From an uncultured Porphyromonadaceae bacterium (lineage in GTDB: Bacteria; Bacteroidota; Bacteroidia; Bacteroidales; Muribaculaceae), in contig CAMWXH010000002.1 in NCBI GenBank assembly GCA_947178165.1, positions 28,863 through 92,862 on the forward strand: a stretch of DNA of 64,000 nucleotides, in the 5' to 3' direction. The number at the start of each line of letters is the position of its first letter. Position 1 is the first letter of the stretch. A program made the translations under genes and the position numbers. The notes under the pieces were generated by a model, which was given only the letters and a program-made list of their open reading frames with translations, ran no database searches and was not told the DNA's origin. Shown one piece after another: positions 8,732 to 44,213 of the stretch.

Positions 8732-8935
8732 ATGGAGGATCTAAACCGGATTAAACTAGTTTTAGTTGAGAAAAAACGTACAAGCAAATGGTTGGCTCAG
8801 GAAGTTGGACGAGATCCGGCAACTGTCTCAAAATGGTGTACGAATGTCTCTCAGCCTGACTTATATACATTCAAACGGATTGCAGAACTATTGGATGTGG
8901 ATGTGCGAGAACTTATTTGTAAAACAAAACAATAA
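8732..8935 (+). CDS. XRE-family HTH transcriptional regulator
   Basis: RTSKWLAQEVGRDPATVSKWCTNVSQPDLYTFKRIAELLDVDVREL is a typical HTH_3 protein. Confidence 0.9.
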   Translation: MEDLNRIKLVLVEKKRTSKWLAQEVGRDPATVSKWCTNVSQPDLYTFKRIAELLDVDVRELICKTKQ

Positions 8936-8937
8936 CA

Positions 8938-10193: not shown

Positions 10194-10196
10194 GCC

Positions 10197-13787: not shown

Positions 13788-13794
13788 TTCCGAT

Positions 13795-16700: not shown

Positions 16701-17442
16701 GATTGTTTGGCATGACGATGTTATCATCAAGCAACTAATAAGCTACATAGTTGGAGCATGGATGGGGCGCTACCGTCTTGACCGCCCGGGACTGCATATC
16801 GCACATCCGAACCCCTCGGAGGAGGAGTTGGCGGAATATACCTTCAACCTTTCAGGCTCTGACGAGACTCTCAGGATTGACGAGGATGCCGTAATTCCGG
16901 TGCTTCCGCAGGATGCTCCGTTCTTCGACAATCTCTATAACTATGTGGTAGAGTTTGTACGAAAGGTATGGGGCGAAGACAAGTTGGCGGAGAATATCAA
17001 TTTTATTGAAAAGTGCATGGGCAAGAGCCTCAACGACTATCTGATGAAAGACTTCTGGAAAGACCATAAAAAGATGTATCAGAACCGACCGATTTATTGG
17101 GAGTTTGCATCAAAGAAGGGTGCTTTCCGGGCATTGGTGTATGCCCACCGTATGGACCGATATACAGTAGAGGTGCTCCGCTCAAAGTATCTTCTCCCTT
17201 ACAGAGCTTTTATCGAGCGAAAAATCGCGGCTCTCGATGCACGCTCCAACGATTTCAGCACCAAGGAACGCAAGGAACTCGACAACCTCCGCAACAAGAT
17301 TCTGCCGGAGTTGAGCGAATATGCCGAGCGTGTGGAAGTCGTGGCCCAGCAGTCGGCTATGCGCGACCCGGTCTTCGACCTCGATGACGGGATCATCAAG
17401 AACCACGCCCTCTTCGGCGACATAGTAACCAAACTAAAATAA
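13795..17442 (+). CDS. pglX: BREX adenine-specific DNA methyltransferase PglX
   Basis: VADFACGSGHILNECFDLL (motif I), AIVMNPPYMP (NPPY), 1215 aa, BREX synteny. Confidence 0.93.
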   Translation: METTKLKRFAAEARTNLMDGVSRKLQLLGFDKKGNVVAEPQPLQGGVLWNGEEYPEAFYRQWTTLRDRIHERGVREVVEEASYIWFNRMMAIRILTMNGLCEPVLRYDEAIGLPLLLSDARMGRVPAMSAQERARFDRLMDDDNRTYDQFALLLTAWCHANPVIHACFGSINDYVELLLPDNIFRPDGFIAKLNETQFISEEDYKSAELIGWLYQFYISDRKDEVFAKKGKVEADEIPAATQIFTPNWIVKYMVHNTILPQVDADEEIIESAKYLVKTENNTDRKVELEDLKVADFACGSGHILNECFDLLFDLYRSEAYSRREAIECIFTKNLTGIDIDLRARQLATFALLLKACQKDVSFADAHSLPHVISIPEVDKELIDLADTRSIAGYLHHFFLGAETKECSEQMTEAIVLLKDADSLGSIIKFDLSPSTRRQLIEAVKHWKRQEELPAAIKAGLPMMDFILTLTDSYDAIVMNPPYMPTSKVEGLKEYAAKNYPDSKTDLFSVFMDVCIDRLKDRGKYGMINMQSWMFLSSFEALRKKVIDEQHIDSLLHLGPRTFDELSGEVVQNAVFVIAKEKPQSEGIYYRLIDGKSCASKQDMFLAEEYRYVVKNQKQFEKIPGAVLGYWISEKFLSIVQEKKANSILKARHGILTGDDEKYLRLWYEPSFKNICFCARSFSDIDNKSEAFYPMNKGGMKRKWYGNNVIVIWIKNNLNNFNNNKLAERNLFFKEGITWTEIADIATIRYSNHGILFGHKGATAFFDRQEDLFCFLGYTNTKIFNVIKHLLFSGLSFTAGNLQEFPFKHISSQEIIKIVKSCIAISKQDWDAHETSWDFQKSPLLAAICDCKANVADFDMLAEDEKNDVTEMVGNVFDSSKLEDCVNVNISKWTRLFHRLHANEEELNRQFIEIYGLQDELTPDVPLDEVTILQQGEVSIKKEETVSDDGSHILMIDGIKSIIAKLPEERIVWHDDVIIKQLISYIVGAWMGRYRLDRPGLHIAHPNPSEEELAEYTFNLSGSDETLRIDEDAVIPVLPQDAPFFDNLYNYVVEFVRKVWGEDKLAENINFIEKCMGKSLNDYLMKDFWKDHKKMYQNRPIYWEFASKKGAFRALVYAHRMDRYTVEVLRSKYLLPYRAFIERKIAALDARSNDFSTKERKELDNLRNKILPELSEYAERVEVVAQQSAMRDPVFDLDDGIIKNHALFGDIVTKLK

Positions 17443-17453: not shown

Positions 17454-17672
17454 ATGACAAAGAATCAAATAGACTATGTGACCTGTGTCATCGGAGCTTT
17501 GGCATTGATGACGGGAAAGTCATGTTCATGGATATATCAGAAGCTACATGCTGCCGGTGTTATTAAGGATTATCTGGCAGCCGCCTATGAGGTTCTTCAT
17601 ACGTTCAGCCTTGAATATGTAGCCGCTGATGTTATACAGCTGATGAAAAAGAAAGGATACGCATTATGTTAG
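17454..17672 (+). CDS. DUF3791-like small protein
   Basis: TGKSCSWIYQKLHAAGVIKDYLAAAYEVLHTFSLEYVAADVI is typical of DUF3791. Confidence 0.75.
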   Translation: MTKNQIDYVTCVIGALALMTGKSCSWIYQKLHAAGVIKDYLAAAYEVLHTFSLEYVAADVIQLMKKKGYALC

Positions 17673-18145
17673 TATATCATTCCTCTGATCAGTGTTTTTC
17701 TAATCCCGATGTAGTGCATTCTCGTGAGGCTCTTGACTTTGGGAAAGGATTTTATGTGACCAAACTCAAAGAGCAGGCAGACAAATATGCCGATCGTTTC
17801 CTCAGAATCGGGAGTGATGCGTATCTGCATATATTTGAATACACTCCTGACTCGGATCTGATTGTCAAGATATTTGAATCATACGATGAAGAATGGCTTG
17901 ACTTCGTATGCAGTTGCCGAAAGGGAAATGATGTTTATAAGTCGTATGACATTATCGAAGGCGGAGTTGCTAACGATAAGGTCTACCGGACAGTAGACCT
18001 CTATATGGCCGGTATATATAATAAAGAACAGGCTCTTCAGAATCTCGCGTATGAAAAGCCCAATCATCAACTATGTTTCATAACTCAAAAGGCTATAGAC
18101 AAATGTTTGAAGTTTATTGAGCATAAAAAGTATAGTAATGGATAA
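17666..18145 (+). CDS. DUF3990-like, possible ADP-ribosyltransferase-fold protein
   Basis: MLVYHSSD...DFGKGFYVTKLKEQADKYADRF fits DUF3990/ART-like layout. Confidence 0.75.
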   Translation: MLVYHSSDQCFSNPDVVHSREALDFGKGFYVTKLKEQADKYADRFLRIGSDAYLHIFEYTPDSDLIVKIFESYDEEWLDFVCSCRKGNDVYKSYDIIEGGVANDKVYRTVDLYMAGIYNKEQALQNLAYEKPNHQLCFITQKAIDKCLKFIEHKKYSNG

Positions 18146-18388: not shown

Positions 18389-20212
18389 ATGGATCATAAG
18401 GAACACTTACAGGAGTTAATGGCCGATATCATCAACATTTTCGGCAAGGAGATTATCACGGAGAAACGATTCGTGAATCTTCTTGCTGACTATCGTGCTT
18501 TTGACGGCAATAACGATGCAAGAAGAATCCTTAATGCTATAGTGTCCGGGAGATATGCAAACAAGATAGTAAATCTGACAACTTCTAAATTTGATCTACC
18601 TAAATTGAAGTATTACGCTTATGAACTTTCCAAGTCAGATGGCTTCAATGAGGAGACAGTAGAAACTGTCATGAGGATGATTGTATTTGCTTGCAACAAA
18701 GGCAATCAGGACGAGGCAAACTATTCCATCATAAAGCAAGAAGATAAGTTCGGATGTGTAAATTCAAAAGGAGACATCATTATTCCATTCGAGTATGACA
18801 AGATGCGCGACTTTAAATCTGATTTTGGGATACATATTGTTTGTGCTAAAAACTTTGAATGTAGCGATGTTTATACTGCATTAGGAGAACTTGTCTTTTC
18901 CGGAGGATCAAATATCCGACTGACTAATGAAGACGGACTATGGATGGTAGAAAAAAATAACAAATATGGTTTAATTCATCCTAACGGAGAAATAGTTATC
19001 CCTTTTGAATACAAAAGTATTGTGACGGTTAATCCCGGTTCAGATATTAGGCTTCTTGTAGTAGAGACTGAAAACAGAATGTTTGGAGTGCTGGATTATA
19101 TGGGGCATCAGATATTGCCACCGGTGTTTGAGTCGATACCCAATTTTATCAGTGACACATTTGAGATAATAGAGGCAAAACTAAGCGACAGATATATGTA
19201 CTTCAACATAGACGGTTCTGTTGCTGAAATATCTCCATTGTTCTGTGCAACACCCTTTACGGCATATACATATAATCAAAATGACCATAAGATGCCTAAA
19301 GGTTATATTGTTAACGGAGAAAAATTAATAGTTTCGACTACCCACGGCGATATTACTGATGTTAATGGTAAGATACTCTGCAACCTCGGACCGTACAATG
19401 ACGGACTTGCGGTTGCCAAAGAAGACAATTTGTGGATTGGTTATATGAGCGAGTCATTGGAGTGGAAAATTCGCCAGTTCTGTCACGATCCTAATGCGCT
19501 TTTTGATTTATGTGAACCTTTTAGTAATGGATTGGCAATTGTATGGAAAGGAGATAAAAGAGGACTTATCAATACGAATGGAGATATTGTAGCCGGAATT
19601 AACTATAATGATATTGCGCGTCGTGATTGGTGTTGTCTTTTAAGGTATTCTTCAAAATATGTAAATACTATATTCTCTGATGAATATGGTGTTGGAGATT
19701 GCTATGTAAGACCCAATGATATAAGTTGCGAGTTCATTTGTACTATGAACGGAATTTATGACATAAGCAATTTTACAAACAACAGGGCATTCGCTCAATA
19801 TCGTAATTTCGTAGGAATAGTTTCCCCCAAAGGGACTTCCATTGAACCATTAGAATATGAGTGGCTTAGGAGTTGGAACTCTCACAAACTACATGAAACT
19901 ACAGTGATATCTCCTGTCCGGCGAAACGGTCAATGGGGTGGACTGGATATGGAACATGGATTCATCCCATTCAAAGACGAAATGCAAGAACGCAATGAAA
20001 AGAATTACATTTCTAAACATATTGAAACATCCACGCCTATTCCATACTTTTTGGAATACCAAAAGGATGTAACTCCTTGTGGTTTTAAGTGGAGTAATCT
20101 ATACCATATTCCGGCAGGTTTATATGCCGACTTTATGAAATTGAGAACAACAATGGCTAAAGAAGAGCAGCTTCAATGGCTTAAAATCAATTCAGTAACA
20201 GTATTAGAATAG
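18389..20212 (+). CDS. WG-repeat protein
   Basis: Repeats such as FGCVNSKGDIIIPFEYDKM, YGLIHPNGEIVIPFEYKSI, RGLINTNGDIVAGINYNDI. Confidence 0.85.
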   Translation: MDHKEHLQELMADIINIFGKEIITEKRFVNLLADYRAFDGNNDARRILNAIVSGRYANKIVNLTTSKFDLPKLKYYAYELSKSDGFNEETVETVMRMIVFACNKGNQDEANYSIIKQEDKFGCVNSKGDIIIPFEYDKMRDFKSDFGIHIVCAKNFECSDVYTALGELVFSGGSNIRLTNEDGLWMVEKNNKYGLIHPNGEIVIPFEYKSIVTVNPGSDIRLLVVETENRMFGVLDYMGHQILPPVFESIPNFISDTFEIIEAKLSDRYMYFNIDGSVAEISPLFCATPFTAYTYNQNDHKMPKGYIVNGEKLIVSTTHGDITDVNGKILCNLGPYNDGLAVAKEDNLWIGYMSESLEWKIRQFCHDPNALFDLCEPFSNGLAIVWKGDKRGLINTNGDIVAGINYNDIARRDWCCLLRYSSKYVNTIFSDEYGVGDCYVRPNDISCEFICTMNGIYDISNFTNNRAFAQYRNFVGIVSPKGTSIEPLEYEWLRSWNSHKLHETTVISPVRRNGQWGGLDMEHGFIPFKDEMQERNEKNYISKHIETSTPIPYFLEYQKDVTPCGFKWSNLYHIPAGLYADFMKLRTTMAKEEQLQWLKINSVTVLE

Positions 20213-20214: not shown

Positions 20215-21042
20215 ATGCCAACACCTGGAATACCCAATATAATCGATTGCGGAATTTGCAGTCTGCATCCCGCCCAGCCTTCAAATGTATGGGTGGTAGA
20301 AGAATTATTCAGACATCCGGACGTAAGGAAGTTCTATGTATTGCGCGATGACCATGCGGCTAACATAAGAAGTTTCTGCCAGTATATCATTGCAGCCAAT
20401 GTTCAGAAAGCCGCGATGAATTTCATCATCTACGATAATTATGGAAACGAAGTGGGTCTTATCTCGGCGGAACCGATGATGAACCGTAATACTAACCTTC
20501 CTATGTGGAATGTCGGTTATGCTGTTTTGCCTTCCGAAAGACGTAAGGGGTATGCCGCTGCAGCGTTAACGGGATTGAGTAACTATCTGCTTCAGAACTA
20601 TTCATTCCCTCAAGTGATGCTTGACATTTGCACCGAGAATCACGAATCGGAAGGAGTTGCCCGTAAATGTGGCTTTACGAAGCCTAATGATGGGCAAGGA
20701 TATATTGATCCCAATCACATGGAACTTGGATTCCGTTTCCGTTGGTTCAAGCAGCTTGCAGGACAACGCACAATGTACTTCAATCAGGCGGTGCACTGTT
20801 ACCGTCAGAAAGACTATATCGGAGCAATAAATGCGTTCCGGCAGGCGCTGAACGAACCTTATCAGCCTGGCACACCATATACAGATGCACAGATCTATTC
20901 CAACATGGAGATGGCTCTCTCATCCGTACATCTTTACAAGGAAGCCTTCGCTGCCCTGAAAAAAGCCCAATCCCTTGGCCTCAATAATCCGAGCATTGAA
21001 AAAGAACTCCTCTGGCTCCGCAACAATAAAGGACTTTACTAA
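20215..21042 (+). CDS. GNAT-family acetyltransferase with C-terminal TPR-like region
   Basis: WNVGYAVLPSERRKGYAAAALTGL (GNAT motif A), VARKCGF; then YFNQAVHCYRQKDYIGAINAFRQAL (TPR). Confidence 0.8.
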   Translation: MPTPGIPNIIDCGICSLHPAQPSNVWVVEELFRHPDVRKFYVLRDDHAANIRSFCQYIIAANVQKAAMNFIIYDNYGNEVGLISAEPMMNRNTNLPMWNVGYAVLPSERRKGYAAAALTGLSNYLLQNYSFPQVMLDICTENHESEGVARKCGFTKPNDGQGYIDPNHMELGFRFRWFKQLAGQRTMYFNQAVHCYRQKDYIGAINAFRQALNEPYQPGTPYTDAQIYSNMEMALSSVHLYKEAFAALKKAQSLGLNNPSIEKELLWLRNNKGLY

Positions 21043-21058: not shown

Positions 21059-24000
21059 ATGAGTTTTATTGACGACATAAAGAACGAGCTAAATTCAACA
21101 TATATCATTGGATCGTATCACCGTGATGGCGAACGAGGTTACTTTGATGACCTTCGTGGCGCCGCAGGTGAACGCATAGAAGACTTCGAGGGTAATCCCA
21201 GAACGGATAAGGTATACATTTCTCGAACAGACCTCATTGAAGATGAATTTTATGAATTTGATTGGAGTATCGAGGGGGAATCGGAGAATAGTTATTCGTA
21301 TATTTGCGTAGGCGGAATTCGCCCTGTAAATAAGACGCGGATGCTTCAGGTACGTCTTGACGAGAAACTTTCTCAGAGAGGCACCAACCGAAAAGATGCA
21401 AATCAGAATCAGAAGATGATTAATCAGGAGGTAACCGGTGCACCTCATACGTATATCTATGAATTGCTCCAGAACTCAAATGATTATCCTCTTAAAGATG
21501 CGAATAATAATAAAATCCCGGTTGAAGTCAAATTTATTTTGACAGAACATTATCTGTTTTTCATACACTCCGGTGCCCCTTTCAATCTCAGGAACATTGC
21601 GGCTATATGTACTGTCAATGAAGGTGAAAAAAGAGATAATACCGAGACTATTGGATATAAAGGCATGGGCTTCAAGTCGGTCTTTGTCAACAATGATTAT
21701 GTATTTCTGAGTTCAGGGGATTGGAATCTTCGATTTGATGAAAAGGAGATTAAGAACCGTAGTAGATTCCCCTTGAACTGGCAATACATGCCAATCCCCA
21801 CATCCCTCACGGAAGATATTGATGATGAGATTAAATCAGTTTTGAAAAGTATTCCATCTCACATGAATGTCTTCTTCGCCCTTCGTCATCTCAGAGATGC
21901 TAGTGAGAATGAGCCGAATCTCGAAAAAGTGTTTGTAGATGATAGGATTCTGGTGTTCATCCCTTATGTTGACCATGTAGAGGTATATATCGACGGAATA
22001 CTTCGATATGACCGCTACAAGGATCGAACACGTTGGCTCATAAAAAATGACATTAAAATTTCGGTTGACGACAACTACAAGTCAATTCTTGAAGAAAGTC
22101 TCAAGACCGATAAAAAGATTCCTGAGAAGTTCCAGAAAATCAAGGAAATTTCAGTTTCTTTCGCAGTCCAGCGCGATGGGAATAAGTTAATCCCTATTCC
22201 TATTGAGAACTCACAAGTATATAATTATCTGCCGACTGAGCAGCAATTATATCTTCCGTTTTTGATTAATGCGGACTTTGTGCCTGACGCATCTCGAAAA
22301 AGTCTGCCTGAGCATAAATGGAATCATAAAGTATTGGAGGATGCTGGACATAGGTATGCTCAATGGTGGGCATCTTTGATGCTCGATGTGGAGAATTATG
22401 ATCTCGCTTCTGTATTTGATTTGCTTCCAGACTTTAGAAAAGGTGATAAATTCCGCGAGTCCTTCATGAAGGGCTTTGAGCAAGAAATCGGTAAGATTAA
22501 GTGTATTCCAATTCTAAAAAATGGAGAACGAGCTTTAGTTCCTATCAATGAAATCATTTTCGACAATATGAGCTTTGTTGTTTCAGACAAGCCTGTAATG
22601 TTAGATAGCGACTTTTATGCTTTGCTAGGAGTAGAAAATATCAGTGAATATCTTCCGCATCCAGAGATAAGACAGCATCAGAATCTCAAGATGCTGCTTG
22701 AATATTATTCAGCAAAGAATAATATTGGCAGAGTTCTCAATAACAGTGACGTCCTGACAATCCTTCGTTCTCTAAAATTCGAGAATTGGGTCAAAGATGA
22801 GTTTAATGCCATCAATCTTTATCGATACCTGTTTGAATCTCAAAAGATAAACAACATCCTAAATTCATTCGATAAGATTTTCTTAACCGAATCGGGAGAG
22901 ATTGAATCGCCTAATAAACTCTACCACAATATCGATTACTACCTCGAAGAACTTTATATGTTCGAGGATAGACTTCCTCGTTTAAAGAAATCAGTAAGAG
23001 ATATTTTGCCTGAAGGATTCCGTGGTATTGAAGGAAAGTTCAAAATGTTCGTCCCATCGTCGGTAGCTTTAGAGCTTTCAGCAAACTTCGATAAGAATGA
23101 AGACGGTTCTCGTATTGAAAATATTACAGACAGTATCCATTTCTTAAACTTCCTTGCTACGGCAAAGGGATATACCGGTGGTATGCCTAAAACAATGCCT
23201 TTATACTTGGACGAAGGCGTTTCTATCGGAAAAGAAGATGTTTATCAGGAAGATGAACTGGGACTATTACTATCTGAGCAGCCTTGGGTTAAGCCTGAAT
23301 GGATACGCTTTATCCATTACGGGTATGCAAAACATTCAGATGATTTGTCTCGCTTCTTAACCAAGTGTGGTATTACAACCATAAACCCTGCGATGGTATG
23401 GAGTTCGTTTATCGCTGATGATGAAAGGTCTCAACATATAATCTCATATATTGCTGATAAACAGGCAAGCATTGACTTTTTCTATTTCCTTACGAATATA
23501 GAGAAGGAGGTCAAATTTACGGATCAGACGAAACAGCTTAAGAATAAGTATCATATCTGGGTAAATGATGGAACAAATGATGAATATGTGCCACTTTCGT
23601 CCGTAATTTACTGGTCAGACTCCAAAGAACGTGATGAACTACTGGAGAAGGACTGGTTACCTGCTAATGCTTGCTATGCAGTAGATGATGATTATCTCGG
23701 TCAGTTCTTGGGAGAAGACCGTGATGCCATAGAGCGAATTTTCAAGGCGAATGGTATCGTTGAGGATTTCTCTGTGTCGAACTGGATCAAGAAGTGTATG
23801 GTCAAAGAGCATCTTTGGCAGGAAGTCATCAAGAATATTACCTCAACAGATACGAGTATAAGTTTTCTTGATTTCTTATTTGAGAATCGTGCGTATAAAA
23901 GTGAAATAGGATATAGTAAATTAGATCAGATCCCTCTTTCATTGGAAGGTGAATCTGAGATGCTTCCGTTAAAGGATATTGCAGAGACTGTATATCAGCG

Positions 24001-27000
24001 ATCAGACGATCTCATAGAGTTATCAGAAGAGCCCTGGTTCCCGTCATACGAACTGACTTCTGTTTCAAGTGCCTATTCTGACCTTTTTGATGGAGCTGAT
24101 AGGCGAGCCTTTTTTGATGAGATTGGTATAAAGGAATTTGATTTGGACGAGTATATCGAGGAAGAAATTCTTGAAAACCTTGATAACTACACAGACTATT
24201 CGGATATTGATAATGCTTTAGAAGCCAATATAAGTTTCCATAAGTTCTTTGCAAATCCATCGCTCCGTTTGAGTGATGATGATTATGAGAAACTTAAAAA
24301 TACGCCTGTATTCACTATTCTGCCAGTAGAGAATAGCAAAGAATCAGAATCAGGCTTATGCGAAGTTTGTACCGGCTTCTTCCTGCCTTCCGACAAACTC
24401 GGCGAGCTGGTTGAACTTGATATAGCACCTGCATCCATTCTTCATACTATTCGTCCCGAATATTTTGCGACCGATGCAGAACAAATGACAACCTATTTCA
24501 AAGATAGACTTGGAAATAGGAAACTACAAGACAATGAACTCGTAAAGCATCTGCTTGATCACAAAAAAGATATAATTGCTTATATTCAAGAGTATAATAG
24601 GAATCTCAGATTCTGGCAATGGGCAGCGCAAAGTTCCACTACCTATGAGGAACGTCTGGCGTTCCGTAATTTCCCCATGGCGGATTCCGATAGGAATCTA
24701 ATGCTGCCAAGTGAACTGTATGCGTCAGCAGTCTATTCAAAAGATAAAGAGGCAGAACAAGTCATCCGAAGATTTATCCCAGATGCTCACTTCGTTCTTG
24801 ATGATTATGCCAACATAGAAACAGAAAATGAAATTGATTGGCTGAGACTATTCAAGAACATAAAAATCAGCATCTCGGCAGAATATGTTCTGCTCAATAA
24901 GGTTTTGCCTAAACTTAATGAGTATAAATCAGAGCATGATGATGTCGTACTTGCTTTCGCTGGTGTTTTAGAAGAGTTGAAAGCAAAGCATAACGAGGAC
25001 GCAAAGAAAATTGAAGGATATTTGCAAAACCTATATGTAAAGTGTAAAGATGGAGAATACCACAAAATTGGGGACACCATCCTTACCGGTGCATATATGG
25101 GGATAGAAACTGGGAAGTATAATGACATCGTATTGCCATTGCAAATATCTGACGATTATCTGAAAGATACAGAGGATAATCCCACTTTGCGCTCCAACGT
25201 TATTGACTTCTTCAGATTCTTAAAAGATAAAACGAACATTGATGTTATCAAGACAGCGCAAGATTTAGCCGCTCGAAAGGTTGAAATATTCCTTTCCAAT
25301 CAACAGACTTATGCGAGGTCTGATGCTCACTATCGAATTATAGGCGAGCTGGCAGAGGACTGCTACCAACAAGTAGGATGGACAGATACTATTTTTAAGG
25401 GCAAGTGTTTATTGCTCTTCTCCTCAGATAATCGTCTTATATCCATGGATAAAGGTAATCTTTATCTTGGATCAATATATAATCCCATATGTGATTATCA
25501 AGCTAATGGAATAACGAATATTCATTACGTCAGTGATGAATATCGGAAGTATGCTGAATTGGCAAGTATCCGTTTGTTCTTGACTAATCCAAGTAGGGGA
25601 CGTGTAAAATGGGGCTTCCATGGCGAAACCGAAATGAGATATTTGGAAGATTCTACTTTCTCAACATATTTCTGGAGAGTATTTCTTCCATCGCAGTTGA
25701 GGAATAAAGATTCAAGATCTCATTTTGATAGGCTTTTAACGACCGATACGCTGGAAAAGTATCGTTGTATCCCTACCGGAGGTGGCATGAAAAAACCGTC
25801 ACAGGTATATAATCCAATTGATAACCAGTTGGTGCGTATGATTAAGGTCATGGAAAAACAAGACGAATATCTGCCAACTGTAGAAATACCTATGGAGTAT
25901 TCCTACGGTTTCGCTTCACGGCTGAATGAGATGGATTGTCTTGAATTCTTGCGGAAAAGCGAAAATGACAAAGGTTATCAAGATGACAGAATCAAAGTAT
26001 GTACTTGGCTGTCGGAACTTCCAGAGAATATTTTAAGAAGTAATTACAAGAATATCGTATTACGATTTAAGGAGAATGCGTTATGGCGTAATGGTGCCAA
26101 AAAGTGGGTGCCATTAAAAGATTTATGTATTCTTGAAAGAACCAAGGAGTCTAAACTTATTGTAGATCATTTTGGGGGTAGTGAATACGTATGTTTTGGA
26201 GCATCTCTGCCTGAATCAAATCAGGTTCTCCAAAAGTTGCACCTTCTTTTCGACATTCCCTTGTTGAATAAAGATGATTTTGATCATAAAACAATTGGAA
26301 ATGTCTTTGAGGATACGTATGAAGTTTCTGAGCTCCAGAAACGCTTAGTCTATCTCTCTTATACTGAAAATCCTGATGGTGACTGGGAAACCAAATATAA
26401 AGAACGTCAGGCCAAACTCGACAATGCAAAGATAGAAGGATGTGATGAAATCATATATTTCTATGCAGGAAACGAAGACCTTTCAACAACCTTATCTTTT
26501 TTAGATAATGGAGATAACGGTTTTGCGTATAAGAAGGGTCGTAAGGAGCACATGTTTGAGAGCCGATTGAATTGGGCAATTAAGACATTTGACCTTGTAG
26601 GCTCACATATATCAGTACTTCAGGAGCTGTTCTTGGATAATTTTTCCGATTATGTTGAAAAGCATAATGGTGGAAGCTTACCACCTAATGTGTTGCATTA
26701 CTTATCAGATGCCGACAAAAGCAAGATTGGGACAGATATCGTCGAAGAAATACCGGATGACGCCCAACAACCTTATGTTAGCGGAGCTTCCGTCCCCGAG
26801 TCTCATGACACGACTCAGTCAGCATCTCAAGAGCAGCCTGTCAATCCTAACGGTACTGCGCACGCACAATTTACCGATCAAGAAAACAAATCGAGTCAAG
26901 GTAAGCCTAATGCTGAGAGTGGCGCAAATGAAGGATATGATTCTTCGATCAAACCTGAACATACACAACTCAAGCATAAGGAAAAATCAAGAGTAGAACA

Positions 27001-29224
27001 ACAATCCAAAGGACAAGAAGGACAAAGTAACTCTAAAGAAAACCCGGCTCAGCCGAAAGACACAACTGGAGTTTCTTCTGAAACTCCGGATATACCTGAT
27101 GGACCGGAAGAGTCGTTTGAAGAACGCAGCAGAAAACGTTGGGAGCAAAGACGTGATGCCAAAGTTACGCTTCCTACTTCTTCGCAACCTTTACATAAGG
27201 GAACTGAAGATGTATTAGATATTGAAGATAAGCCGGCTGACACTCCCAATTATGGAGATGTTTACGATCCAAATTCAGGAGCTTCTATCAAAAGAACTCC
27301 TAAATCAAATACATCTTTACCAAAGTCATCATCGGGAAAGGAACTTGATAATGCTCGAAGAAAAGCAAAGGAAGAGGAAGATAAACAAGATCGTAGAAAT
27401 AAACTCTATGATTTGACTCCATATACATTGGAGTGGTTCAATTATTTAATTGATATGCAACTTGAAGCTGTATATGAAGGTAAGTCAGTAGAAAGACATA
27501 TCGACTTATATGATTGGGCTCAAATTGATAAGGACTCGAATCTTTATCGATTGGTATCTCCATCTTCTTTTATTCCATCGAATCTTTCGGAAGCATCAAA
27601 TGTAAGAATCCTTGTCGTCTATAATGGCAAGAAACAAGTGCTTAATGCAGAAATTCTTGAATCTGATGAGTCTGGAATCGACATGAGATGTAGTCAATAT
27701 TTTGGCTCTCCGAGTGCGACAAGGTGGCTACGAATCGAGTACCAAAATATAGGAGGTTTCTCCGAGGCTCAGGCGAATCGTTTTAGCCAGTTAAACAGGG
27801 ATTGGAATTTGGGGACGAACCTTGTTCAAAAGCTTCCGTCAAATATGGAGTTCATCTATGGTCCTCCGGGAACAGGTAAGACTACTGAACTTGTAAAGCG
27901 AATATCAGAGGCTTTGCATGTAAATGCTCGTTATAACATTCTTGTTGTAACTCCCACAAATAGAGCTGCAGATGAGATAGCAGAGCGTTTAGCTGTTGAT
28001 ATGTTCGCCTCTGATTATCTATCCCGTTATGGCGTGACTGAAAGTCGGGAACTCATACGTAATCATCAGCAAGTCTTGAAGAACCGCCAATCTATGGATT
28101 TGAAAAAATCCAATAAGAATGTGATGGTAACAACAATTGCTCGCTATCCGTATGATAGTGTCCAGCCTTACGGAGAAGCTATATTTGATTTGAAATGGGA
28201 TCTTATCATCGTGGATGAAGCCTCCATGATTGATATTGTCCCAATCACACTGCTTTTGGTTAACAATAAGGCCGATAAGTTTATCATCGCCGGAGATCCA
28301 AAGCAAATCCGCCCGGTAAAACCAAATATAGACTTCCCTGATGAGTATGTTTTCAATATCTACGATATGGTGGGTATGAATAGCTTCAAGGAGGCGGCAG
28401 AAGGTAAACTCCCATACCCAGTAATGGCTTTGGATGTTCAGCACCGATCGGTTCCGAGTATAGGTAATCTTGTAAGTAAATTCTCTTACGACGGCATTCT
28501 TAAGAATGACTCTAACAAAGCTCTACCGAAGAGCCTGGATATACCGAATATGACAGTCGAACCCATAAATGTGATCGGATATGAAGTTATACCGATGAGT
28601 CATCTTTATGACTTTAATACGGTTGACAATTCTGCCGTGCATGTGTATTCAGCCATTTTTGCATATGAATTTGCTGCTCATATCGCAAAGCTGGTATCCA
28701 CATATTCGGATAAAGAACATTACACTATCGGAATTGTCAGTCCTTATAAGAAACAAGCTTCTGCAATACAAGAAATGCTTGCAAGCAGAAAGATTGATAC
28801 TGATGAATGTAGTGTAAGCTGCGGTACGGTACACAAATTTCAAGGTGGCGAATGCGATATAATGATTGTTGTGATGAATTACCCCAATACTCATTCTGGG
28901 GAAAATGCCAATATAAATAATCTGAATATCATGAATGTGGCTATGAGTCGTGCCAAGGATTACGTGTTCTTCCTCAGTCCAGAAAAGCGCGTAGGAGAGA
29001 AAGCTATATACCCAATGAATGATGAGTTGTTCAGGCAACTTCCGAATAATTTTAACTTCTATCATGCTCATGCTTTGGAGAAGATTATGTTCGATGATGA
29101 AACGTTCATTGCAAAGAACGCGTCCTTGAAGAGTCACCTACCTGTGAATGTTTCCACGCCTACGGGCAAACGTTATGAGGTTCGCATTAGTGACACTGCT
29201 CTTGATATTCAAATTAACGACTAA
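21059..29224 (+). CDS. Giant HATPase (sacsin-like N-terminus) - disordered linker - SF1 helicase protein
   Basis: N-term IYELLQNSNDY..HSGAPFNLRNIA..ETIGYKGMGFKSVF (GHKL-type). C-term FIYGPPGTGKTTELVKRI, DLIIVDEASMIDI, GDPKQIRPV, NVAMSRAKDYVFF (SF1). ATG at 21059 avoids overlap with the GNAT gene. Confidence 0.85.
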   Translation: MSFIDDIKNELNSTYIIGSYHRDGERGYFDDLRGAAGERIEDFEGNPRTDKVYISRTDLIEDEFYEFDWSIEGESENSYSYICVGGIRPVNKTRMLQVRLDEKLSQRGTNRKDANQNQKMINQEVTGAPHTYIYELLQNSNDYPLKDANNNKIPVEVKFILTEHYLFFIHSGAPFNLRNIAAICTVNEGEKRDNTETIGYKGMGFKSVFVNNDYVFLSSGDWNLRFDEKEIKNRSRFPLNWQYMPIPTSLTEDIDDEIKSVLKSIPSHMNVFFALRHLRDASENEPNLEKVFVDDRILVFIPYVDHVEVYIDGILRYDRYKDRTRWLIKNDIKISVDDNYKSILEESLKTDKKIPEKFQKIKEISVSFAVQRDGNKLIPIPIENSQVYNYLPTEQQLYLPFLINADFVPDASRKSLPEHKWNHKVLEDAGHRYAQWWASLMLDVENYDLASVFDLLPDFRKGDKFRESFMKGFEQEIGKIKCIPILKNGERALVPINEIIFDNMSFVVSDKPVMLDSDFYALLGVENISEYLPHPEIRQHQNLKMLLEYYSAKNNIGRVLNNSDVLTILRSLKFENWVKDEFNAINLYRYLFESQKINNILNSFDKIFLTESGEIESPNKLYHNIDYYLEELYMFEDRLPRLKKSVRDILPEGFRGIEGKFKMFVPSSVALELSANFDKNEDGSRIENITDSIHFLNFLATAKGYTGGMPKTMPLYLDEGVSIGKEDVYQEDELGLLLSEQPWVKPEWIRFIHYGYAKHSDDLSRFLTKCGITTINPAMVWSSFIADDERSQHIISYIADKQASIDFFYFLTNIEKEVKFTDQTKQLKNKYHIWVNDGTNDEYVPLSSVIYWSDSKERDELLEKDWLPANACYAVDDDYLGQFLGEDRDAIERIFKANGIVEDFSVSNWIKKCMVKEHLWQEVIKNITSTDTSISFLDFLFENRAYKSEIGYSKLDQIPLSLEGESEMLPLKDIAETVYQRSDDLIELSEEPWFPSYELTSVSSAYSDLFDGADRRAFFDEIGIKEFDLDEYIEEEILENLDNYTDYSDIDNALEANISFHKFFANPSLRLSDDDYEKLKNTPVFTILPVENSKESESGLCEVCTGFFLPSDKLGELVELDIAPASILHTIRPEYFATDAEQMTTYFKDRLGNRKLQDNELVKHLLDHKKDIIAYIQEYNRNLRFWQWAAQSSTTYEERLAFRNFPMADSDRNLMLPSELYASAVYSKDKEAEQVIRRFIPDAHFVLDDYANIETENEIDWLRLFKNIKISISAEYVLLNKVLPKLNEYKSEHDDVVLAFAGVLEELKAKHNEDAKKIEGYLQNLYVKCKDGEYHKIGDTILTGAYMGIETGKYNDIVLPLQISDDYLKDTEDNPTLRSNVIDFFRFLKDKTNIDVIKTAQDLAARKVEIFLSNQQTYARSDAHYRIIGELAEDCYQQVGWTDTIFKGKCLLLFSSDNRLISMDKGNLYLGSIYNPICDYQANGITNIHYVSDEYRKYAELASIRLFLTNPSRGRVKWGFHGETEMRYLEDSTFSTYFWRVFLPSQLRNKDSRSHFDRLLTTDTLEKYRCIPTGGGMKKPSQVYNPIDNQLVRMIKVMEKQDEYLPTVEIPMEYSYGFASRLNEMDCLEFLRKSENDKGYQDDRIKVCTWLSELPENILRSNYKNIVLRFKENALWRNGAKKWVPLKDLCILERTKESKLIVDHFGGSEYVCFGASLPESNQVLQKLHLLFDIPLLNKDDFDHKTIGNVFEDTYEVSELQKRLVYLSYTENPDGDWETKYKERQAKLDNAKIEGCDEIIYFYAGNEDLSTTLSFLDNGDNGFAYKKGRKEHMFESRLNWAIKTFDLVGSHISVLQELFLDNFSDYVEKHNGGSLPPNVLHYLSDADKSKIGTDIVEEIPDDAQQPYVSGASVPESHDTTQSASQEQPVNPNGTAHAQFTDQENKSSQGKPNAESGANEGYDSSIKPEHTQLKHKEKSRVEQQSKGQEGQSNSKENPAQPKDTTGVSSETPDIPDGPEESFEERSRKRWEQRRDAKVTLPTSSQPLHKGTEDVLDIEDKPADTPNYGDVYDPNSGASIKRTPKSNTSLPKSSSGKELDNARRKAKEEEDKQDRRNKLYDLTPYTLEWFNYLIDMQLEAVYEGKSVERHIDLYDWAQIDKDSNLYRLVSPSSFIPSNLSEASNVRILVVYNGKKQVLNAEILESDESGIDMRCSQYFGSPSATRWLRIEYQNIGGFSEAQANRFSQLNRDWNLGTNLVQKLPSNMEFIYGPPGTGKTTELVKRISEALHVNARYNILVVTPTNRAADEIAERLAVDMFASDYLSRYGVTESRELIRNHQQVLKNRQSMDLKKSNKNVMVTTIARYPYDSVQPYGEAIFDLKWDLIIVDEASMIDIVPITLLLVNNKADKFIIAGDPKQIRPVKPNIDFPDEYVFNIYDMVGMNSFKEAAEGKLPYPVMALDVQHRSVPSIGNLVSKFSYDGILKNDSNKALPKSLDIPNMTVEPINVIGYEVIPMSHLYDFNTVDNSAVHVYSAIFAYEFAAHIAKLVSTYSDKEHYTIGIVSPYKKQASAIQEMLASRKIDTDECSVSCGTVHKFQGGECDIMIVVMNYPNTHSGENANINNLNIMNVAMSRAKDYVFFLSPEKRVGEKAIYPMNDELFRQLPNNFNFYHAHALEKIMFDDETFIAKNASLKSHLPVNVSTPTGKRYEVRISDTALDIQIND

Positions 29225-29226: not shown

Positions 29227-31764
29227 ATGATACAGAAACGAATATACAACTACTTTGAGAGGAACCCAAGGCTGAAAGTGCTATTCATGTTCGATAGGAT
29301 GGGAGGGTTTGAAGCTGAACTGTCTGAGCTTGCATGGACGGAGGATTATGTCATTAAGGTTTTCGATGGCAAATGGTGGAATCTGAAAGTTGCTTTGCTC
29401 AGGGAATGGTCTGAAAAGAAGGTCGTGCTTGTCTTTCCCTATGAACTTCGTCCTGATACTGAGGAGAAACGTCTTAAGTTTCCCCTTCTTGATGTATATG
29501 CCTCGAATCTTGAATTTAAGGATGAGCGATATGAAGAGTTCATGCAGCAGTATGGACTTTCCCAAAAAGTAGCATCGTTTGTAAAGAACAATATTGACGC
29601 ACTTACATCAAAGAAGGTAATGCCTCTCCTTACCGGAATGCTTGATGATGTGAACTTTACAGTCGATTTTGCAAACCGCGCGATAATTTCTTCCTACCTT
29701 GGAGAGAAGAAAACTCTAGAATGGGATATAATCATTGTAAAAATGATCCTACTATCCGCTCAAACGGATGATAAAAAGTCAAATGACTTTTATCTAAAGT
29801 TATATAAGAATCTTGATGTCAGAAAGTCAGTAGACGATAAGCTGAAAAGTATTTTCGGCGTCACATTCAATCCGGATATAAATGACAAGATGCGACCTGT
29901 TGCGGAGATCTTGAAATATAACGCTATCACCCAGTCGATGCCTGCTAATCCGACAGACCATTACAGTAATTTGAAAATCAGCGACCGTCGGATTCTCGAT
30001 ATAATCAATAGTATATACGAAAAAGGGAACAGTGAACCGCAATTTTCTTCAAAATTCGCTGATGCGATGTCGAAATTGGGTTCCGGTATCAGAGAGGAGG
30101 AGATAATAAATATCTATGGTACAGATGCACCGTATTTCTTTATAACAGAGCATTTGATGCTTCCGATTCTTATGTCAGTCTTGACAAAGGATGTGGTGGC
30201 AGATCCGGGTGCAGCTATCGATAAGATACGTGCACTGAGTCTGAGGCTGAACCAGGATTCAAGCATTTGGGCTTTGATCAAGTATATTGAAAATGTTGCC
30301 TATTTCTACGATTCCGTTAATGTGCTTGGTGGGCTACGTCTTGATAAACCTTCGGAATATATTTCGCTTTATACTGAAAGATTCAGTAAGATAGACAGGT
30401 TTTATCGAATTATACTGGATTCTTTTTATCTACTGCCCGAACTTGATGAAAAAACTGTATCTTCTGTATCTGTAAGTAAAAAGACAATTGACGCTAAATA
30501 TGCCCAATTGGCAAATCAGCTCAATTATGAATGGCTGGAATGTGTGAGGGATACAGGCAATGCGTTTGACAAAGTCGGAATACTGAGACAAAACGAATTT
30601 TATGCTACTTATAATGATCCGAATAAACTTGTGGTTATTATCAGTGATGGATTAAGATATGATGTTGCAGTAGAACTGTATGAGGAACTCGCGAAGAAAA
30701 AACATATCGCTACGTTGTCGCCGATGCTCTCACTTCTCCCTTCGGAGACAAAATTCTGCAAGCCGGCTCTTTTCCCTCATAACACCTTGAAGTTGGAGGG
30801 TGACAGTATGACGACTGACGGTAAGATTCTGTCTTCTGTCAAACAAAAGACAGAACAACTATGCCGATACAGAAATGATGCGATTTGTGTCAATTTTGAA
30901 GAGGTTTCCACACAACTAAATTCACATCGTGAACTTTTCAAGAAACCGTTAGTATATGTGATGCACGATAGAATTGATAAAACAGGACATGACCAATCTA
31001 TAAGTGACGTCACAGACTCTTGCAGAAAGACTGTAGAAGAATTGGCACGATTCGTCAATAGCCTTCACATGACTTTGAATTGTAGTAATGTCATCATAAC
31101 TTCCGATCATGGCTTCTTACTCAATGACATTATATTCGAAGACAAGGATAAGCTCTCCATCTCAGAGAAAAATATTGAGGCCACAACCCGTTATTATCTT
31201 ACTACGGAGCGAGATAAGGTTGATGAGGTTGAAAAGATCAATATTAATAAAGCGTCAACCATCGAGACAGATGTTGAGACGTTTGTGGCAACCCCTATGG
31301 GAACGAATCGTTTCGCTGCTTCCGGAGGTTACAAATACACGCATGGAGGCGCATCGCTACAGGAAATGGTTTTGCCGGTGATATGCAGTAAACTTCGCAG
31401 GGAAAGCAGCAAACGAATGGTTGATGTGCTTATCAAGAACAACAATCTTAATATGGTCTCAAGCCGTCTGAATTTTCAATTAGTTCAGAAGGAAGCGGTT
31501 TCTATGGATGTAGTTGCGAGAGAAGTAGTATGCCGCATTTATGATGGAGACAGGATGGTGTCAGATGAAGTAAAAGTGTCGCTCGATAGTACAGATGCAA
31601 TGAATATCGCTAAACGTACATACGATGTCACTCTGAAACTAAAGGAATCAGGCGTCGGAAACCTGCTTCAACTCCGAGTATATGATGCCGATCCTTCTCG
31701 ACAATTGAATCCCCTCGTTAAAGAAACAGTAAGAAACAATACCATTATTGAACAGGATTTCTAA
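29227..31764 (+). CDS. pglZ: BREX alkaline-phosphatase-like PglZ
   Basis: LVVIISDGLRYDVAVELYEEL; NVIITSDHGFLLNDI; BREX synteny, ~845 aa. Confidence 0.92.
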   Translation: MIQKRIYNYFERNPRLKVLFMFDRMGGFEAELSELAWTEDYVIKVFDGKWWNLKVALLREWSEKKVVLVFPYELRPDTEEKRLKFPLLDVYASNLEFKDERYEEFMQQYGLSQKVASFVKNNIDALTSKKVMPLLTGMLDDVNFTVDFANRAIISSYLGEKKTLEWDIIIVKMILLSAQTDDKKSNDFYLKLYKNLDVRKSVDDKLKSIFGVTFNPDINDKMRPVAEILKYNAITQSMPANPTDHYSNLKISDRRILDIINSIYEKGNSEPQFSSKFADAMSKLGSGIREEEIINIYGTDAPYFFITEHLMLPILMSVLTKDVVADPGAAIDKIRALSLRLNQDSSIWALIKYIENVAYFYDSVNVLGGLRLDKPSEYISLYTERFSKIDRFYRIILDSFYLLPELDEKTVSSVSVSKKTIDAKYAQLANQLNYEWLECVRDTGNAFDKVGILRQNEFYATYNDPNKLVVIISDGLRYDVAVELYEELAKKKHIATLSPMLSLLPSETKFCKPALFPHNTLKLEGDSMTTDGKILSSVKQKTEQLCRYRNDAICVNFEEVSTQLNSHRELFKKPLVYVMHDRIDKTGHDQSISDVTDSCRKTVEELARFVNSLHMTLNCSNVIITSDHGFLLNDIIFEDKDKLSISEKNIEATTRYYLTTERDKVDEVEKININKASTIETDVETFVATPMGTNRFAASGGYKYTHGGASLQEMVLPVICSKLRRESSKRMVDVLIKNNNLNMVSSRLNFQLVQKEAVSMDVVAREVVCRIYDGDRMVSDEVKVSLDSTDAMNIAKRTYDVTLKLKESGVGNLLQLRVYDADPSRQLNPLVKETVRNNTIIEQDF

Positions 31765-33878
31765 TGGAAGAAGAAACATTACAACAAAAGATTATGGACT
31801 CCTTCTTAGGAAAGGTTGTTCGTAAAGACCTTGCCTTTTTGGTGAAGGGAGGTCTCCCCGTACCTACTTATGTGCTTGAATATCTGCTCGGCCAGTATTG
31901 TGCGAGTGATGACGAGCAGGTTATCGAAGAAGGCATCGAGAAGGTTAAGTCTGTCATACGTAACAATTATGTAAACCGTGCAGATGCCGAGCAGATAAAG
32001 GGTAAGATAAGAGAGAAAGGTAAATTCAGAATAATCGATAAGGTAAACGTGACTCTTAATGAGCGTGATGACCAGTATCAGGCATCGTTTGCCAATCTCG
32101 GACTTACGAAAGTACCCATAGGCTCCCAGTACGTCACACAAAATCCTAAACTACTCTCCGGTAATGGAGTGTGGTGTATTGTTACCATCGGTTATATCCA
32201 AGGTGATGATATAAAGGTAAGGTGGGAAATACAGACATTGAAACCGATTCAGATCTCGAATATCGACCTACAGGATTACATTGACCAGAGAAAGAAATTT
32301 ACCACGGATGAATGGATTGATTTCCTGATACATACTGTAGGCCTGAATCCGGACAAGATGAACCGACGTGAAAAATTTATCACGTTGGCCCGGTTACTCC
32401 CTCATATTGAAAATAATTTCAATTTTATGGAACTCGGCCCCAAAGGCACCGGTAAGAGCCATGTCTTTCAGGAGCTGTCACCATACGGAGTTTTAGTCAG
32501 TGGAGGTGATGTCACAAGCCCACGTCTCTTTGTAAGAATCGTAGGAGACAGGGAAGTTCTCGGTCTGGTCGGATACTGGGACGTTGTGGCATGGGATGAG
32601 TTTGAACAACAGAAAGGGCGTAATGTCGATGCCGTGCTCATCGATACGATGCAGAACTATCTTGCAAACAAATCGTTCAATCGTGGTAAGGGAACGCACG
32701 AGGCTTCAGCATCAATGGTGTTTGTCGGCAATACAAAGCATACAGTGCCATATATGCTTAAAAACTCTCATCTTTTCGAGTCCATACCTACGTCTTTCAT
32801 AAAGGGTGCTTTCCTTGACCGAATCCATCTATACAATTCCGGGTGGGAGATTAAGATGCTTAAGAAAGACAGTTTCTCAAAAGGCTACGGCTTGATTACC
32901 GACTATATCGCAGCTGTACTTCATGAGTTGCGCAATTACGATTGGACTGACAAACTAAAAGAGTATGCTCTGTTTGATGTTTCTCTTTCTGAACGCGATC
33001 ATCTTGCCATACGTAAGACATTTTCCGGAATGATGAAACTTCTTTATCCGGATGGAAACGTCACAAACGATGAGGCTTATGAACTTGTTGATTTTGCGGC
33101 AGAAAGCAGGAAAAGAGTGAAGGATCAACTGTATAAAGTTGATGAAACGTTTAAGGCAGAACCGGCAGTCTTCAAATATATCCGTCTTAAAGATGGACAG
33201 GAGATAAACGTGGAGACATTGGAGCAGGTCAACAATGTAGTAATTGTACCCCAAAATGCTTCTGCAGCCCTGAAAGCAGAACTGAACATAGAGGAGACAG
33301 AGACACCGCAAGAACAACTATCAGCAGAAGAAAAAACGTCAACCGAAGATAAGCCACGTAAGAAAAGAGAGCGAATCCAAACGCAACGTGAAGGAGCCAT
33401 GTCATTCCGGCTTGGCCAGACCGGTGTGACTTTTGAAAAGCTCTTTATGCCGTATCTCTCCAAGTCTAAAGAGATTACAATCGAAGATCCTTTTGTGAGG
33501 ACATCATGGCAGCTCAGAAATCTCATAGAATTTCTGACGATGCTTGTTGACAATCGACCTGATGAAGATATTAAAGTAAGACTGGTTACATGGGAGGAAG
33601 ATGAAAAGTTACCTACTCTCATTGACCGTCTTGACGATATAAAAGATGATATGACTACTTACGGTATAGACTTCGATTACTCTTTCAGAGAGTTCCATGA
33701 CCGCCAGATAACCACTGACGACGGTTGGAATATCAGCCTTGGCCGAGGTCTGGACATCTACGACAAATACAACGCTTTCTCAGTTGCGTCAGGTCGGCAA
33801 GATAGGCGAAAATGCAGAGAGTTCCGTGTGATATACATGAAATCAGATAAAACGACAGAACATGGGAAAACTGAGTGA
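31764..33878 (+). CDS. brxL: BREX AAA+ protein BrxL with MIT_C-like C-terminus
   Basis: MDSFLGKVVRKDLAFLVKGGLPVPTYVLEYLLGQYCASDDE..; NFMELGPKGTGKSHVF Walker A; C-term ITIEDPFVRTSWQLRNLIEF..HDRQITTDDGWNISLGRGLDIYD. Confidence 0.9.
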   Translation: MEEETLQQKIMDSFLGKVVRKDLAFLVKGGLPVPTYVLEYLLGQYCASDDEQVIEEGIEKVKSVIRNNYVNRADAEQIKGKIREKGKFRIIDKVNVTLNERDDQYQASFANLGLTKVPIGSQYVTQNPKLLSGNGVWCIVTIGYIQGDDIKVRWEIQTLKPIQISNIDLQDYIDQRKKFTTDEWIDFLIHTVGLNPDKMNRREKFITLARLLPHIENNFNFMELGPKGTGKSHVFQELSPYGVLVSGGDVTSPRLFVRIVGDREVLGLVGYWDVVAWDEFEQQKGRNVDAVLIDTMQNYLANKSFNRGKGTHEASASMVFVGNTKHTVPYMLKNSHLFESIPTSFIKGAFLDRIHLYNSGWEIKMLKKDSFSKGYGLITDYIAAVLHELRNYDWTDKLKEYALFDVSLSERDHLAIRKTFSGMMKLLYPDGNVTNDEAYELVDFAAESRKRVKDQLYKVDETFKAEPAVFKYIRLKDGQEINVETLEQVNNVVIVPQNASAALKAELNIEETETPQEQLSAEEKTSTEDKPRKKRERIQTQREGAMSFRLGQTGVTFEKLFMPYLSKSKEITIEDPFVRTSWQLRNLIEFLTMLVDNRPDEDIKVRLVTWEEDEKLPTLIDRLDDIKDDMTTYGIDFDYSFREFHDRQITTDDGWNISLGRGLDIYDKYNAFSVASGRQDRRKCREFRVIYMKSDKTTEHGKTE

Positions 33879-34279: not shown

Positions 34280-35545
34280 ATGAAAGAATTAAAAACAAAT
34301 GACAAAGTAAATCTCGTAGGAGGCCTTCAGGCAACAGTAGTCAAAGAACTGGGGAGTGGTGGTCAGGGCATCGTTTACCTTGTAGAACTTCTCGGGAAAA
34401 AGATGGCCCTTAAATGGTATCTTAATGCTCCCGATGACAGATTTTACAAGAATCTCGAATCCAATGTTAAGAAAGGAGCTCCTTCGGGAGCATTCCTGTG
34501 GCCTGAGTATGTAACCATGAAAGAGAAAGGAAGCTACGGCTACATAATGCCATTGCGTCCTGAGGGATATTATGAGTTCGGGCAATTCTATCTTGCTCGT
34601 GTGCAATTCCAGTCTTTCGAGGCACTCCTCAATGCCGCTATGAAAATATGTGAAGGTTTTAAGAATCTTCATCTCAGTGGCTTCAGTTATCAAGATCTTA
34701 ACGATGGCAACTTCTTTATCCATCCTGCGACTGGTGATGTGCTGATCTGCGACAATGACAACGTTATGCCGGAAGGTGAAGCGTCGGGAATCCTCGGTAA
34801 AGCTCGTTACATGGCTCCTGAGATTGTACTTGGAAAGAATATGCCCAACAAGGGCAGCGACCGTTTCTCTCTTGCCGTGCTTCTCTTCATGCTTTTTTAT
34901 GGCAACCATCCCTTTGAAGGAGATAAGGTGCTTCAATGCCCTTGTCTGACGGAAAAATTTGAGAAGAAATTCTATGGAAGCGAGATACTTTTCATCTACG
35001 ATGAGAAGGACTCAAGCAACCGTCCTGTAAGAGGTGTGCATCGCAACGTAATTCGTAGATGGCCTGTATATCCTGCAATTCTCCGCAATGCGTTTATCGA
35101 AGAGTTCACTCAGGAGAAACTGAAAGACCCCAACAAGCGAAGTATTGAGAAAAGATGGCAGAACATCATTCGTGGTCTTCGCGATATGCTTGTAGTATGC
35201 CCGAAATGCAAGGAAGAGACTTTCCTAACGGATCGTCAATCTCCTAAGTGCATGAACTGCGGTACTACCATGCAGATTGCCGGTGGAATACAGCTCCAGA
35301 ATCGTACGGTTTGGCTTACTCCGGGGACCGTTTTCTATCTCGGATATGACAATGTTCCAACTGCTCGTATCGTAACAGTGCCGGGCGACAAGTATCCCAT
35401 CCAAATTCAGAATATGACATCTGAAAAATGGACGGTAGAAACTCCGAGCGGCAAATTGAAGAGCATTGAGCCTCAGGGAATGATGCCTGTAAAGGCCGGT
35501 CTTAAAGTAATCTTCGACTCAGCTAATAAAGCAACAATAATCTAA
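34280..35545 (+). CDS. Ser/Thr protein kinase-like protein with C-terminal zinc ribbon
   Basis: ELGSGGQGIVYLVELLGKKMALKWY; SYQDLNDGNFFIHPATGDVLICDNDNV; ARYMAPEI; CPKCKEETF..CMNCGTT. Confidence 0.85.
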   Translation: MKELKTNDKVNLVGGLQATVVKELGSGGQGIVYLVELLGKKMALKWYLNAPDDRFYKNLESNVKKGAPSGAFLWPEYVTMKEKGSYGYIMPLRPEGYYEFGQFYLARVQFQSFEALLNAAMKICEGFKNLHLSGFSYQDLNDGNFFIHPATGDVLICDNDNVMPEGEASGILGKARYMAPEIVLGKNMPNKGSDRFSLAVLLFMLFYGNHPFEGDKVLQCPCLTEKFEKKFYGSEILFIYDEKDSSNRPVRGVHRNVIRRWPVYPAILRNAFIEEFTQEKLKDPNKRSIEKRWQNIIRGLRDMLVVCPKCKEETFLTDRQSPKCMNCGTTMQIAGGIQLQNRTVWLTPGTVFYLGYDNVPTARIVTVPGDKYPIQIQNMTSEKWTVETPSGKLKSIEPQGMMPVKAGLKVIFDSANKATII

Positions 35546-35566
35546 AATCCAAAATATCACAAAATT

Positions 35567-36307: not shown

Positions 36308-36318
36308 AATGACACAAT

Positions 36319-37488: not shown

Positions 37489-37491
37489 TCA

Positions 37492-38589: not shown

Positions 38590-38593
38590 TACA

Positions 38594-44208: not shown

Positions 44209-44213
44209 TAGAT

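Follow-up and report, generated by a model that had tools for sequence, protein, structure and literature searches.

The window, by which we mean the whole 64,000-nucleotide stretch that was analyzed, carries a complete BREX type 1 core in the order brxA-brxB-brxC-pglX-pglZ-brxL; this result describes the operon and not the giant gene inside it. The core genes all lie on the forward strand and encode BrxA (positions 8938 to 9573; PF08849, E value of 6e-27), BrxB (9570 to 10193; PADLOC, E value of 3e-31), BrxC (10197 to 13787; PADLOC, E value of 8e-143), PglX of the BREX-1 type (13795 to 17442; NF033452, 974 bits against a cut-off of 500), PglZ (29227 to 31764; PF08665, E value of 1.5e-34), and BrxL with a C-terminal PLD-like domain (31764 to 33878; PF13337, PF20442, and PF16565). 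The slot between pglX and pglZ holds cargo genes on the same strand, encoding a DUF3990 protein (17666 to 18145; PF13151, E value of 2e-48, a PADLOC PDC-M13B/M10A candidate), a WG-repeat protein (18389 to 20212; PF14903), a GNAT acetyltransferase-like protein with TPR (20215 to 21042; PF13302, E value of 9e-14), and a giant protein of 2,721 amino acids (21059 to 29224), referred to here as BIG. A preliminary description of this DNA had placed the giant gene between pglX and pglZ, and this was borne out, with BrxA, BrxB, BrxC, and PglX encoded upstream and PglZ and BrxL downstream.

It is common, and widely reported, for BREX loci to carry additional effectors (PMC12839542). Like BIG, the Salmonella ATPase/DUF4435 pair STM4493-4494 sits between pglX and pglZ (PMC9009780), and BrxU is another added gene of a BREX-1 operon, although located between brxC and pglX (PMC8565348). 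The proteins themselves are unrelated to BIG.

BIG is an intact gene under purifying selection

The reading frame of BIG is free of stop codons to position 29224 and is also open upstream, as far as a TTG at 20975. We take the ATG at 21059 as the most likely start, in preference to the TTG, because homologs begin at the ATG position, two of them (L075 and L078) exactly at the equivalent ATG. The gap to the GNAT gene upstream is then 16 bp, and that to pglZ downstream is 2 bp. Estimated dN/dS ratios were ~0.13 against a 91% identical homolog and ~0.07 against an 81% identical homolog, indicating purifying selection, and BIG is therefore a real gene and not a chance open reading frame. BIG is very large and rare, as a decaying and functionless passenger might be, but such decay is hardly credible given these ratios, the intact motifs of both motor domains, and an unbroken frame in all four full-length copies found within genomes of the host family. 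The proposal that a GHKL ATPase and an SF1 helicase share a single polypeptide was correct.

Domain organization of BIG

Domain boundaries were taken from matches to Pfam, NCBIfam, and PADLOC models, from sequence motifs, and from AlphaFold2 (AF2) predictions; the model of amino acids 1 to 1150 had a mean pLDDT of 84. A small beta-rich domain (amino acids ~12 to 90; 21092 to 21328), predicted by AF2 and conserved in alignments, precedes an Hsp90/sacsin-type GHKL ATPase and an Hsp90-middle (S5-like) domain (amino acids ~92 to 445; 21332 to 22393). The NCBIfam sacsin N-terminal domain model NF047352 matched above its cut-off (E value of 2e-17), and the best Foldseek matches of the N-terminal part were Hsp90 and TRAP1 (E value of 6e-9). 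The catalytic glutamate E135, together with N139, D142, and the G2 motif G199-F205, was invariant across 11 relatives. The Bergerat-fold motifs with their catalytic glutamate, joined to the middle domain, place this region in the sacsin/Hsp90 type of GHKL ATPase, and the motifs quoted in the preliminary description are all present (YELLQNSND at amino acids 134 to 142, HSGAPF at 170 to 175, and GYKGMGFKSVF at 199 to 209).

The following ~1,600 amino acids had been described as unassigned. A large central stretch does exist, but most of it is a tandem array of repeats of ~120 amino acids rather than featureless sequence. The array spans amino acids 480 to 1785 (22496 to 26413) and comprises up to 11 units of 105 to 126 amino acids. 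When a profile of long homologs (up to 26) was aligned with itself, off-diagonal matches appeared at successive offsets with E values of 1.6e-33, 3.9e-25, and 4.8e-13, while a reversed control gave nothing below 0.25. The starts of 11 units could be named in BIG; in pairwise tests, units 2 to 6 were clearly homologous, and the outer units weakly so. Searches with hidden Markov models, which had been suggested for this region, returned no further family domain from Pfam, NCBIfam, or PADLOC; amino acids 1150 to 1550 lie outside the predicted structures. The possibility that this region conceals a new enzyme was also considered and, on the strength of the self-alignment and its control, rejected for most of its length.

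The array is followed by a last folded block (amino acids 1786 to 1893; 26414 to 26737; AF2) and by a low-complexity linker (amino acids 1894 to 2091; 26738 to 27331). The linker is predicted to be disordered, with pLDDT values of 22 to 50 over most of its length, and coincides with the one proposed at ~26.7 to 27.4 kb. The C terminus (amino acids 2092 to 2721; 27332 to 29221) is an SF1 helicase of the UPF1/SETX/IGHMBP2/DNA2-like kind, matched by Pfam AAA_12 (E value of 7e-22), AAA_19 (E value of 1e-17), and AAA_11. Its fold was nearest to Upf1 (Foldseek E value of 1e-24), Setx, Ighmbp2, and Dna2, and motifs I to VI, the SF1 fold, and an inserted beta-barrel assign it to the UPF1-like group. 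It is complete, as had been claimed, with Walker A (GPPGTGKTTE, 2268 to 2277), DEAS (2386 to 2389), and motifs Ia, III, IV, V, and VI in place; the catalytic residues of both the GHKL and the SF1 motor are intact. No nuclease domain was found in BIG.

BIG matches named defense systems only in part

Tiamat and Mokosh are reportedly both described in Millman et al. 2022. The PADLOC TmtA model of Tiamat (PDLC03972) matched amino acids 136 to 675 of BIG with an E value of 2.3e-87, and the short fused relatives described below also match TmtA. BIG could therefore be regarded as a form of Tiamat to which a helicase has been added, in which case an existing system name would already apply. We consider this quite unlikely: the relatedness is confined to the N-terminal GHKL ATPase and the first repeats of the array, and the best model aligned at positions 20 to 540 of 1,302, about 40% of its length. 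BIG adds a longer array, the linker, and the SF1 helicase; the array and the helicase have their matches elsewhere. Mokosh shares a related SF1 helicase, with MkoA and MkoC matching the C-terminal region of BIG only (PADLOC E values of 7e-33 and 1e-26); BIG differs in having the GHKL ATPase and no Pfam match to a kinase, PLD, or NERD domain. Because each system matches only part of BIG, we filed it under neither, and no named system of identical architecture was encountered among the PADLOC matches.

More distant parallels also differ in composition. MORC and paraMORC GHKL ATPases of restriction-modification (R-M) operons pair with SF2 helicases and nucleases (PMC2292703), which likewise ties a GHKL ATPase to helicases and methylation-based defense; the GHKL domain of BIG, however, is sacsin/Hsp90-like and gave no MORC family match, and its helicase is SF1, not SF2. 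CnuH of the CoCoNuT systems is a UPF1-like SF1 helicase in a predicted defense system, but its partners are a McrB-type GTPase and HEPN proteins and not a GHKL array protein (PMC11090510). Within the open-access literature, a scope that excludes most subscription papers, no description of a sacsin/GHKL-SF1 defense fusion was found.

Relatives of BIG occur in three architectures

A scan of 397 genomes of the host family recovered relatives in 16 (E value of ≤1e-30), a patchy distribution. A wider scan covered 84,980 species genomes, of which the best 80 loci were kept. Inspection of loci gene by gene revealed three architectures. Giant fused forms (architecture C, ~2,640 to 2,750 amino acids) comprise BIG itself and proteins that are 91% (L058, from genome G213), 81% (L075 and L078, two metagenome-assembled genomes [MAGs] with the same protein), 44% (L059/L060), 34% (L061 and L130), and 25% identical to it, the last (L062) being incomplete at a contig end. 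In two-gene forms (architecture B), nearly all from Bacteroidales, an ATPase-array giant of ~2,200 to 2,530 amino acids precedes a separate SF1 helicase gene. Short fused forms (architecture A, ~1,500 to 1,900 amino acids) have fewer repeats and come from Bacteroidota, Bacillota, Pseudomonadota, Spirochaetota, Myxococcota, and others. Phages were rejected as carriers, no relative of the N-terminal half being present in 50,697 phage records, and plasmid matches were weak and of the DUF3883 type only.

The helicase gene directly follows the giant in 17 of 17 two-gene relatives, with a spacing of −86 to +12 bp. Since the half with the ATPase and array and the half with the helicase are either fused or encoded by adjacent genes in this way, they are coupled and work together. 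Their histories nevertheless differ. Helicases of the giant fused forms grouped with those of three short fused forms (an 11-row clade; SH-aLRT support of 100), far from the two-gene helicases, whereas their ATPases grouped with the two-gene giants (a 27-row set; support of 100). A constraint that joined the ATPases of the giant fused forms to those of the three short forms was rejected (AU test, P = 2e-5), and these groupings show that the two halves have been reshuffled. The constraint joining the helicases of two-gene and fused forms was not rejected (P = 0.50), as the branch leading to the two-gene helicases is very long. A simple fusion of the neighboring genes of a two-gene form is too simple an origin for BIG.

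Exchange also reached the alleles of BIG. Between the window and the 91% identical copy, amino acids ~150 to 1000 are encoded at 65 to 89% DNA identity, while most of the rest is mostly 97 to 100% identical, and the non-BREX copy in L075 is locally closer to one or the other. We take this pattern in the compared sequences to reflect mosaic exchange with alleles outside BREX.

BREX operons of the host family mostly lack BIG

PglZ of the kind in the window was present in 8 of the 397 host-family genomes, and BIG lay inside the operon in 2 of these, namely, the window and the 91% identical copy. It was absent from the other host-family BREX loci examined, two of which end at contig ends; two BIG-free loci show all six core BREX genes. 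Where the slot could be read, it held a SIR2 gene (G150), a Schlafen gene (G394), or three unknown genes (G361). In the 91% copy, genes for OLD-ABC and DUF4276 precede the same WG-GNAT-BIG set; this PARIS-like pair takes the place of the DUF3990 gene of the window. PglX is 79% identical between these two loci and the other BREX proteins 90 to 97%, the lower value being as expected from specificity changes. One further locus (L149, genome G012) is BREX-like, with BrxA-BrxB-BrxC-PglZ-BrxL and no recognizable PglX between BrxC and PglZ.

Co-occurrence with BREX, which had been proposed as a check, was not the rule. A BREX-sized PglZ was found in 3 of 50 genomes with BIG relatives (those of L093, L098, and L103), and most PF08665 matches in the homolog genomes were proteins of 515 to 570 amino acids, a size that fits PorX-like response regulators and not the PglZ of BREX. 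Only one lineage, consisting of the window and its 91% copy, showed the giant fused form within BREX, so its residence there counts as one observed event. A second association of the superfamily with BREX genes was observed in a Bacillota MAG (L093, positions 1 to 14902), where a short ATPase-helicase lies with a partial BREX-1-type PglX, PglZ, DrmD, and a PDC-S68 RecD-like gene; the position of this short form beside PglX and PglZ might point to a functional connection with BREX.

Alternatively, BIG could be a functional BREX subunit or a BREX-dependent helper, acting only on DNA flagged by BREX as unmethylated or modulating PglX or PglZ. BIG and pglZ are probably cotranscribed, given their shared strand and 2-bp gap, and relatives occur in methylation systems, including a type I R-M operon with HsdM and HsdS, operons with DrmD and a type IIG-like methyltransferase, and the PglX-PglZ-DrmD locus of L093. 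We nevertheless judge a BREX-dependent role unlikely: close homologs occur wholly without BREX, host-family operons with all six core genes dispense with BIG, and few relative-bearing genomes encode a BREX-sized PglZ. With SIR2 and Schlafen genes filling the slot in other host-family operons that lack BIG, and OLD-ABC also found as slot cargo, BIG is not a BREX component. The description of BIG as a BREX-associated add-on thus holds for its position as slot cargo and not for membership in BREX.

Relatives outside BREX lie among other defense genes

The 81% identical homologs lie in loci without BREX, in the order Mrr-type endonuclease, BIG, Schlafen/AlbA, primase-like protein, and RT_UG24 (UG24 reverse transcriptase). 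Among more distant giant fused forms, a Schlafen gene lies downstream in L059/L060, and the neighbors are a DruE-like helicase in L061 and a type IIG-like methylase in L130. Two-gene forms were found near genes for DrmD-like proteins, type IIG-like methylases, DruE-like helicases, Septu, and an AbiP2-type reverse transcriptase.

Three two-gene loci (L066, L067, and L084) share a conserved five-gene operon of a DrmD-like SNF2 protein, a type IIG/DrmMI-like methylase, the ATPase-array giant, the SF1 helicase, and a DruE-like helicase, an arrangement resembling a system related to DISARM and Druantia, with the two-gene form as part of it. A UvrD helicase follows this operon where the contig allows (L067 and L084; G304_C1 in L037), and in L084 Septu and OLD-like genes are inserted in it. 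A type I R-M-like operon (L046/L047; G304:C17) encodes a WYL regulator, HsdM, HsdS, PDC-S05, and a 1,210-amino-acid protein with a weak REase_I match, together with a short ATPase-helicase of 1,596 amino acids, a 331-amino-acid protein, and an SF2 helicase; genes of similar size surround the short form of G194 (L049/L050; G194:C12).

These neighborhoods also bear on whether BIG might be a sacsin-like chaperone with a housekeeping or stress role, its location among defense genes being incidental. BIG and eukaryotic sacsin are both giant proteins with a sacsin-type, Hsp90-like ATPase domain and fold. BIG, however, is prokaryotic, carries a full nucleic acid helicase, and lacks the ubiquitin-like, DnaJ, and HEPN domains of sacsin (no DnaJ or HEPN match was found with Pfam). 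The patchy distribution and the recurrence of defense neighbors (BREX, R-M, Septu, reverse transcriptase, Schlafen, Mrr, DrmD, and DruE-like genes) likewise make a chaperone role very unlikely.

BIG as a candidate auxiliary defense effector

We favor, as the fairly probable reading of the sequence comparisons, that BIG is an independent auxiliary defense effector riding as cargo in the pglX-pglZ slot. The preliminary description had offered an independent defense gene hidden in the operon as one of its options, and from the genomic comparisons this option appears well supported: homologs occur without BREX, and BIG-free BREX operons carry other effectors in the slot. It is the neighbors that point to an anti-phage function. 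Given the many other defense neighborhoods in which relatives sit, BIG probably represents an anti-virus module that stands on its own and has yet to be named.

A detailed mechanism can be offered tentatively, and we would put it at somewhat less than an even chance. An Hsp90-type dimer, opening and closing with ATP, would act as a gate and, together with the array, control the tethered helicase. The repeat array may recognize a phage-made protein or nucleic acid or may scaffold a complex; its size and mosaic variation suggest the role of a sensor. Binding would free the UPF1-like helicase on its flexible linker to translocate on phage RNA or single-stranded DNA, unwinding or stripping it and so blocking replication or expression. 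For UPF1-like helicases of another predicted defense family, RNA is the presumed substrate (PMC11090510). Since BIG has no nuclease domain that we could find, damage would come from motor action or from partner nucleases. BREX would provide shared transcription and a first line of defense and would not be a required partner.

More broadly, there is perhaps an even chance that BIG and the proteins related to it make up a widespread, unnamed class of anti-phage systems. In these systems, an exchangeable UPF1-like helicase would be driven by an Hsp90-like ATPase whose long array of repeats serves as the sensor. They would take the form of one protein (short or giant) or two genes, with sensor and motor halves reshuffled, and would be inserted as a backup layer in BREX and other methylation-based defense operons. 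What was a single odd open reading frame becomes a definable family with three architectures, and repeats explain most of its unassigned middle. By a Rosetta-stone argument, the Hsp90-like ATPase and the UPF1-like helicase would be one machine in prokaryotic defense. The giant protein adds to the known kinds of cargo of the pglX-pglZ slot, which may be a practical hunting ground for backup effectors.

Other genes of the window

Just upstream of the BREX operon, on the reverse strand, lies a CBASS-like pair of a CD-NTase (SMODS) and an HNH-SAVED effector (5293 to 8126). Downstream of brxL, positions 34280 to 46679 encode a TerY-P-like triad of Ser/Thr kinase, VWA, and PP2C-like proteins, followed by a 1,521-amino-acid RecQ-like helicase, a coiled-coil protein, a DUF1848 protein, and an ExoIII-like protein; this is probably another defense cassette. 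The region from 52270 to 62545, on the reverse strand, encodes a coupling protein (TraG/TraD, YWFCY), an ArdC-type antirestriction protein, a Toprim/DUF3991 protein, and a MutS domain I protein, from which the defense island appears to lie in or beside a conjugative element.
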